Part shown: piece by piece, positions 566 to 28,540 of the stretch | Layout of the letters: every line of letters begins with the position of its first letter | How positions within the stretch are numbered: position 1 is the first letter of the stretch | From: Nitrospirota bacterium | GTDB taxonomy: Bacteria > JACPQY01 | Assembly (NCBI GenBank): GCA_016190245.1 | Contig: JACPQY010000081.1 | Coordinates: 1 to 35,915 of the forward strand | DNA: 35,915 nt | Direction of reading: 5' to 3' | The notes under the pieces: generated by a model | Told to the model about the DNA's origin: nothing | The model's input: only the letters and a program-made list of their open reading frames with translations | The model's database searches: none | Translations under genes and position numbers: made by a program

Positions 566-1075
566 TTACGCGAGGGCGGGGGCATACCCCGCCCGGTACA
601 GCTTGAGCAGATTGTGGGTGAGGCAGATCAGCCTCCACTCCTGACGCACCTTGCCCCACCCGCGCAATAGAAATCGCCGGAACCCTCACGCCTCCTTGAT
701 CTGACCGAACACCGGCTCCACAATCGCCTTTCGCCTCTTGTACACTGCTTGGCCCTCCTTCGTTCGCAACTTCCAACGCATCTTGTCGGGGAAGGTGGCA
801 TCCTGGGGCAAAGGCCCCCGCCCGGCCGGAATCTCCTCCCCATGCTTCAAACAATCCGGACAGACGTGCGGGTCAATCCCCCGCGCTTGGAGACACTTCG
901 CGTTGTCCTCTGAAAAATATCCGGAGTCCGCGGAGAGCTTCTCGGGCGCCTCGCCCGCGTTCTCTCGAATCGCTTCGATGAGCGGCTCCACCTGTCTCTT
1001 GTCGTTCGCCTCCTGCGTCACCTCACAGGCCACAATCACCTGCTGATCCTCATCCACCGCCGCCTGCGCGTTGTA

Positions 1076-1091
1076 TCCGCCAGCTGGCGGA
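1076..1091. repeat. 16-bp palindrome causing the transposase frameshift
   Basis: TCCGCCAGCTGGCGGA is a perfect palindrome inside the transposase reading frame, after codon 306. Its length (16, not a multiple of 3) shifts the frame, and precise removal rejoins FE to YNAQAAVDE in frame. It belongs to the TCCGCC-N-GGCGGA group found throughout the window. Confidence 0.75.
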
Positions 1092-1532
1092 CTCGAAACT
1101 CTTCGTCGCTCCGTCCTTCATGATCCGACTCTCCGGATCGGTAAAGTTTCTCTGAGCCGCCGGCTCCACCACCGCCCGCGCCGGATCAGAAACGACAGGT
1201 TCCCGCCCCTTCGTCTTCTCCCCCGTCTCCTCCTCCTGGCGTCGACGCTCCTCCATCTTCGCCCGGGCCTCCCGCGCCTGCTCCTCCGCCCCCTCTCGGG
1301 CCTGCGCCTCCAACGCCGCCTTCGCCTCTCGAATCTTCTCAAGCCGAGTCTCCCGGCGACGAAGCTCAGAGGGAAGCTCGTCCCCCCTCACGCCCTTGCC
1401 GTACCGCTTGTCCTCCTCCTCGTCCGCCTGCTGCGCCCCCGCGAGTAACTCCACCACCTGCCACTCCAGCTCCCGCTCCTTCTCCACCATCCGCCCGTAA
1501 CTCATCGCCTTGTGCCTGCTCGCGTTCGCCTT

Positions 1533-1556
1533 CCCGCCTGCCAATTGGCGGGCAGG
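1533..1556. repeat. 24-bp near-palindrome inserted in frame in the transposase
   Basis: A near-palindrome centred on GCCAATTGGC, with CCCGCC/GGCGGG-type arms. It encodes PARQLAGG (codons 152-159) between LDGTKV and KANASRHKAM, a junction that is normally close to continuous in IS1182-type transposases. The 24-bp length keeps the frame. It looks like a longer relative of the TCCGCC palindromes. Confidence 0.65.
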
Positions 1557-1877
1557 CACCTTCGTCCCGTCCAAAGCCACGTGCCCCAACCGAACCATCC
1601 CCGCCTCCCGACACAGCCTCAAAACCTGGATGCACAGCGCACCCAAAGCCACCAAGTGCGTCTGCCGGAAAACACTGATCGTTGAATGGTCCGGATGGGA
1701 CCCGGCACAGATCACACGGAAAGCCACATTCTCGTGGGTCTCCCGCTCCATCCTGCGCGGGGAAGGTATCCCCTTGCAGTAGGCATACAACAAGAGCTTC
1801 ACCATCATCACCGGGTGGTACGGCGGTTGACCCTGCGCGCGCTCCTCGTACCAACGGATAATCGCTGATACGTCCAA

Positions 1878-1892
1878 TCCGCCTGAGGCGGA
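1878..1892. repeat. 15-bp palindrome inserted in frame in the transposase
   Basis: TCCGCCTGAGGCGGA encodes SASGG (codons 40-44) between DVVE and LDVSAI, where the family usually has a shorter junction. The identical 15-mer recurs at 13783-13797 in non-coding DNA. Confidence 0.7.
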
Positions 1893-21982: not shown

Positions 21983-22192
21983 CCTTCGACGGTCACCGCA
22001 ACCCTTGTAGGGGAGGGTGCTTGCACCCTCCCTCCCCTCGGGCGGGTCCGAGGACCCGCCCCTACCACGGTCATTGCCCTGCCATCCTGGCAGGGCCACA
22101 TAGCGTGGTACCTGGCCTTCCTGGGCCAAGGTACGAAGAACCGCCCTGCCCATGGTCGATCCCCCTCCAGGTCGTTTTCAAACAGAGCCTAG
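21983..22192. mobile_element. MITE-like element, copy 2, left end missing
   Basis: Nearly identical to 8397-8633. The right terminal repeat GTTTTCAAACAGAGCCTAG is intact (22174-22192), but the left terminal repeat is replaced by the dispersed repeat ending at 21982. Apart from scattered substitutions and a small change near 22166, the copies differ by two blocks, each being a TCCGCC palindrome in copy 1 and a short loop here (G at 22050, CCTGG at 22086-22090). The hairpin GGGCGGGTCC-G-AGGACCCGCCC is therefore intact in this copy. No coding potential. The whole spacer 21868-22322 holds only repeats and the pgi promoter. Confidence 0.72.
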
Positions 22193-28429: not shown

Positions 28430-28540
28430 TCGAGATTGCTTCTCCGCCAGCCGGCGGATCGCAAGATGGCCTTTTCTTGTCATCGCGAGTCCGCCACAGG
28501 CGGAAACGGGCAGCCTGTCCGCCCACTGGCGGATGGCGAT
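28430..28540. repeat. Three TCCGCC-type palindromes in a GATTGCTTC/GCAATC-type repeat before rpsB
   Basis: The near-palindrome TCCGCCAGCCGGCGGA (28443-28458) is flanked by GAGATTGCTTC and TCGCAAG. TCCGCCACAGGCGGA (28490-28504) and TCCGCCCACTGGCGGA (28518-28533) are flanked by CATCGCGAG and TGGCGATC. The flanks are those of the dispersed GTCATTGCGA repeat (compare 18478-18512), so the palindromes again sit inside another repeat. Nothing coding is seen in 28382-28614. Confidence 0.6.

Follow-up and report, generated by a model that had tools for sequence, protein, structure and literature searches.

The window examined here, the whole stretch of 35,915 bp analysed from a draft Nitrospirota genome, contains a broken IS1182-like transposase gene in which three short palindromes lie within the coding region. 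These raise the question of whether such segments are ordinary residues of the transposase, products of chance or local mutation, or insertions of a repeat that is dispersed in the genome. We consider it probable that they are insertions of short dispersed palindromic repeats, comparable to Rickettsia palindromic elements (RPEs) or REPs, which would have moved as hairpins.

Three palindromic sites in an IS1182-like transposase pseudogene

The pseudogene occupies window positions ~600-2072 on the minus strand and has the domain pair of IS1182-type transposases, with DUF772 (PF05598, 3.7e-18) in its N-terminal part and DDE_Tnp_1 (PF01609, 4.1e-10) in its C-terminal part. It is a single copy in its own genome (3.29 Mb, 86 contigs) and is split over two reading frames, 1050-2072 (340 aa, DUF772) and 686-1057 (123 aa, DDE_Tnp_1). 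Homologues for comparison were drawn from 20 loci (Acidobacteria, Dehalococcoidia, WOR-3, Syntrophaceae and others), along with three more from other genomes. When the 340-residue product is aligned with 14 homologues (40-59% identity), its only private insertions are ASGG at residues 62-65 and PARQLAGG at residues 173-180, and both coincide with palindromes. An earlier note on this DNA had placed three palindromes in the gene, all of which were found where it put them, and had read the segments as insertions that intact IS1182-type relatives should lack. None of the 14 homologues carries either segment, and they align without them at the same places, so that the outcome which the note named as a refutation, relatives with these segments, did not occur. 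It should be noted that at the DNA level the empty site in the transposase is inferred, because the transposase homologues are only 40-61% identical.

Site 1 (1878-1892; TCCGCCTGAGGCGGA on the plus strand, TCCGCCTCAGGCGGA on the minus strand) has the form TCCGCC-N2-4-GGCGGA and codes for SASGG on the minus strand. Homologues have a single residue here (E, A, S, Q etc.) where the transposase has S followed by ASGG. The palindrome is therefore an in-frame insert as claimed, with a net gain of 12 bp (four residues) in place of the 15 bp implied by an added SASGG. Site 2 (1533-1556; CCCGCCTGCCAATTGGCGGGCAGG on the plus strand, CCTGCCCGCC-AATTGG-CAGGCGGG on the minus strand) codes for PARQLAGG on the minus strand. 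It is a clean in-frame gain of 24 bp, with K-V-PARQLAGG-K-A-N-A-S replacing the homologues' K-V/I-K-A-N-A-S, so that the addition of exactly eight residues agrees with the original description. Site 3 (1076-1091, minus strand) is a perfect 16-bp palindrome of the TCCGCC family, TCCGCCAGCTGGCGGA, and shifts the frame. Homologues read F-x-Q-(A/G/C)-Y-N around it, and the transposase has F-E, then the palindrome, then Y-N. The 16 bp thus stand in place of 6 bp (two codons), a net gain of 10 bp. Since they replace rather than merely join, exact excision drops two residues kept in the homologues; the frame is indeed broken at this site, and the proposal that precise removal restores the homologous sequence fails by those two residues.

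In single-stranded folding, sites 1 and 3 each form a stable small hairpin. Translational bypass of hairpins has been reported in Magnusiomyces mitochondria, as mentioned in PMC6649704. Bypass of site 3 was considered and is disfavoured, as removal of the hairpin loses two homologue residues and a stop codon lies downstream.

An in-frame TGA also interrupts the C-terminal DDE part of the gene at 686-688 (minus strand). Homologues have a sense codon here, for Arg or another residue; in each of the 8 homologues found at that position it is Arg. This stop is a lesion independent of site 3, which is therefore not the sole lesion of the transposase. Because of this separate stop, the palindromes need not have killed the gene, as had been suggested.

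Repeat families behind the three sites

The repeats were surveyed in a sample of 807 kb, consisting of ~770 kb of genome stretches and the window, with a GC content of 64.6%. Each of the three transposase palindromes is a member of a family of repeats in this genome. The pattern TCCGCC-N2-4-GGCGGA occurs 73 times in the sample, compared with two occurrences of the swapped arms GGCGGA-N2-4-TCCGCC. Likewise, TCCGCC-NNN-GGCGGA has 57 copies in the whole genome and the pattern read backwards has none. Spacer length peaks sharply at 2-4, giving a unit of 14-16 bp, and 49 palindromes with distinct flanks remain after copies with shared flanks are removed. In the window, TCCGCCTGAGGCGGA with up to two mismatches gives six strand-matches at three places (0.35 expected; none of 100 shuffles reaches six). 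Most copies are intergenic; about one sixth of those listed are genic by a rough codon-usage call. The flanks vary, with nothing shared among them, and neither a GTAG nor a CGTC tag was found at either end of the palindromes.

Site 2 has a different source. An ungapped search with its 24-mer returned only itself as a close match, and a gapped search with its arms then linked it to R1, a GTAG-tagged REP. Of the 11 occurrences of the arms CCTGCCCGCC...CAGGCGGG in the sample, nine are the apical stem of R1; site 2 corresponds to that apical stem alone, without the tag. In the R1 copies listed, GTAG precedes nine and GTGG precedes one, so that a terminal tag stands beside the stem-loop as in other GTAG REPs. 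Because site 2 matches the R1 apex and sites 1 and 3 match the TCCGCC family, the three sites are not one element. Based on these matches, two of the segments are assigned to a minimal TCCGCC-N2-4-GGCGGA family and the third to the apical hairpin of a GTAG-tagged REP.

The two families also meet outside the transposase. The R1 copy at 13739-13830 (plus strand) of the window holds TCCGCCTGAGGCGGA at 13783-13797 inside its loop. Further R1 copies were seen at L040, L057, L058, L060, L062, L065, L068, L075 and L039, with loops that usually hold TCCGCCACGGCGGACGGA; the loop in L039 is short and lacks this sequence. R2, an intergenic repeat of the GAGATTGCTTC...TCGCAATGAC type, includes three TCCGCC palindromes at 28443-28533 (plus strand). 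TCCGCC palindromes also lie in R4, a larger repeat of the CCTCACCCT...GGGTGAGG type seen at L010, L038, L054, L059 and L075, which inside genes encodes peptides rich in P, G and E (PSP...GGEGQGEE). Overall, 13 of the 49 palindromes are enclosed by a larger stem, 6 bp or longer. The expected number is 4.2, and the highest reached in 200 shuffles is 11, which indicates a moderate preference for the loops of other hairpins.

Filled and empty copies, intact genes and rival explanations

Filled and empty copies of palindrome sites exist within this genome. The intergenic repeats at window positions 8397-8606 and 21983-22164 are 96-99% identical and differ by two palindromes. At site A (8458-8483, plus strand), GGGTCCA[TCCGCCACGGCGGACGGA]AGGACCC carries an 18-bp insert at the apex of a larger hairpin, and folding gives a nested hairpin; the empty counterparts are GGGTCCGAGGACCC at ~22043 of the window and GGGTCCAAGGACCC at ~8530 of L042. 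At site B (8519-8532, plus strand), TCCGCCGCGGCGGA stands in place of CTGG in the paralogous copy at ~22087. This second site lies in a repeat, R3, in which 14 bp replace 4-5 bp, and more filled and empty R3 relatives were seen. R2 likewise has a nested 18-bp insert, TCCGCCACGGCGGACTGG, at four loci, and the filled/empty pairs at site A and in R2 differ by a net gain of exactly 18 bp. A CTGG duplication is confined to the nested R2 copies. A general rule of target-site duplication was considered and dropped, as there is none at site A, site B or the transposase sites and net sizes vary (+12, +24, +10, +18).

Palindrome-encoded segments are not peculiar to the pseudogene. An ABC exporter (L038:552-2468, minus strand) has a ~30-aa segment, PAAGIPSPRRGPARRSAGPPRRNGGEGEGEE, that is absent from a 55%-identical orthologue in G001, a genome of the same family. 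A thioesterase (L061:14188-15051, minus strand) has a TCCGCC-encoded segment bearing SASGG, absent from its 52%-identical orthologue in G001. In a MoxR/RavA-type ATPase (L010:859-2127), a palindrome cluster coincides with ~39 aa that are additional relative to RavA; in this region the alignment with a more distant homologue in G087 is poor. In all three genes the reading frames are open and the domains are kept. Hence tolerance in dead genes does not by itself account for the inserts, and the idea that the palindromes concentrate in a dead gene does not hold as a rule. Insertion is not the only route to a TCCGCC palindrome, since equal-length substitution can produce one: in a kelch-like repeat protein (L075, 19131-19685), two repeats carry TCCGCCTTGGCGGA at a position that is occupied in the sister repeats by 14 unrelated bases, with no change in length.

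The main rival to insertion is local mutation, in which template switching at the replication fork, with the complementary strand as template, perfects a near-palindrome in place from a pre-existing TCCGCC or TCC, with no mobility. Several features of the transposase sites suit this explanation. At site 3 two codons have given way to the palindrome, which could be completed from an ancestral TCCGCC by the gain of its second arm alone. Site 1 could likewise be reached from an ancestral ...GAG TCC TTG... (cf. D-S-L-D in L024) by a gain of just 12 bp. The net insert sizes also vary. Template switching, however, predicts no preference for a particular arm, whereas the same arm sequence is found at 49 sites whose flanks are unrelated and the swapped-arm palindrome is nearly absent. 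Moreover, site A and the nested R2 site carry the whole element, with both arms, as 18 bp relative to the empty copy. We therefore regard local mutation as improbable, though it deserves more weight than the other alternatives.

The palindromes could instead have been brought by the IS lineage itself, as functional parts or loops, and would then be ordinary residues of a transposase subfamily. In favour of such an origin, the genome has a single copy of the element and thus no second one to show its state at arrival. Against such an origin, both in-frame segments are absent from every homologue aligned, and SASGG is also TCCGCC-encoded in the unrelated thioesterase, whose orthologue lacks it. 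The loci of the transposase relatives contain no TCCGCC palindrome, and the motif therefore belongs to the host genome rather than to the IS. Taken together, these observations make an IS-borne origin quite unlikely. The least credible explanation, with hardly any probability left to it, is chance palindromes in GC-rich coding DNA. A GC content as high as that of this genome does make GC-rich palindromes common, and the 24-bp site 2 is imperfect. Chance is nevertheless already refuted by the excess of the motif over the genome-wide controls (57:0 and 73:2) and by the coincidence of the sole private insertions with palindromes. The 340-aa frame itself has six short perfect palindromes, compared with a mean of 1.1 in shuffles of synonymous codons, of which 2 in 1000 reach six.

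Proposed mechanism, known systems and distribution

Under the preferred reading, insertion of dispersed palindromic repeats, a short hairpin sequence would copy itself, with most copies going to intergenic DNA and to the loops of other hairpins. A palindrome landing in a gene would survive if the frame is kept and stops are avoided, or if the gene is dispensable. Movement may proceed as single-stranded hairpins, either through a RAYT-type (Y1) transposase acting in trans or through capture during replication repair or at the fork. The genome has eight matches to Y1_Tnp genes of RAYT type, all above the cut-off, as might be expected where GTAG REPs occur. At the four of the eight RAYT loci examined, no R1 or TCCGCC copies lie within ~1.5 kb of the gene, in contrast to the arrangement of a REPtron. 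We would tentatively suggest, as a possibility that we ourselves hold to be doubtful, that TCCGCC-N2-4-GGCGGA is a mobile unit of its own and among the smallest known, which may have entered hairpin loops and genes, crossed distant lineages and added peptides to working proteins.

Among known systems, the SDRs of cyanobacteria are very small mobile repeats, each a few tens of bases long. They would be similar in kind, with another sequence and host. The nearest parallel in kind is the RPE, with which the earlier note aptly compared the transposase segments. As in Rickettsia, dispersed palindromes lie in frame in unrelated genes, are absent from orthologues and would supply extra peptides to intact genes. 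RPEs, however, measure ~150 bp and usually lie within genes without breaking the frame (PMC10969869, which refers to the work of Ogata et al. 2000 and 2002), whereas the units here are 14-24 bp, have a sequence other than that of the RPE family and are mostly intergenic in a draft genome of an unrelated bacterium. REPs, whose length is given as 20-40 bp, lie within ORFs and add amino acids in several bacteria including Rickettsia conorii (PMC3733652). The present genome resembles GTAG REP systems in that R1 has a GTAG tag and a stem-loop, RAYT-type genes are encoded and the arms of site 2 are those of the R1 apical stem. The TCCGCC palindromes, unlike such REPs, are shorter, untagged and found within REP loops instead of being REPs. 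Although the TCCGCC unit would act in the manner of an RPE or an intragenic REP, its lack of the REP tag and its shortness relative to RPEs set it apart from both.

More remote likenesses can be drawn to the organelle palindromic repeats of Volvox carteri (PMC2670323), which are also short, selfish-looking hairpins spread in non-coding DNA, although those occur in organelle genomes and have an unrelated sequence. Cyanobacterial HIP1 (GCGATCGC; PMC4390886) is likewise a short palindrome in high copy across the genome, but its frequency is tied to methyltransferases, whereas the present palindromes each add a net 10-24 bp. A literature text search on both TCCGCC-family arm sequences returned no description of the family among the top matches. 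Intragenic REPs have been described before (PMC3733652); what is new is the size of 14-16 bp, the lack of a tag and the patchy spread. The best-known palindromes within protein-coding sequence come from Rickettsia and from a limited number of genomes with REPs; here a much smaller unit is found in the same role in an unrelated bacterium, in intact and dead genes.

Across 386 genomes, the TCCGCC motif is near control level in most and strongly enriched in a scattered few. The highest counts are in G074 (78 motifs compared with 2 controls) and in G344 of the same genus (47 and 1), followed by G056 (43 and 1), G087 (40 and 1), G177 (34 and 0), G207 (33 and 0) and G117 (28 and 0). This patchy presence across distant bacteria may reflect shared descent, transfer or convergence. 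Enrichment of the same 15-base sequence in scattered unrelated lineages provides a simple marker for how tiny hairpins move and for how often they supply new protein segments. No clean filled/empty orthologous pair was obtained between G074 and G344, in which the palindromes lie in rearranged intergenic mosaics. In these two genomes nearly all spacers have a length of 3, and TCCGCCTNAGGCGGA is the predominant core. Their mosaics (L090-L129) are dense in this core, often as partial tandem units (TCCGCCTNAGGCGGACCTNAGGCGGA), and are rearranged between the two species.
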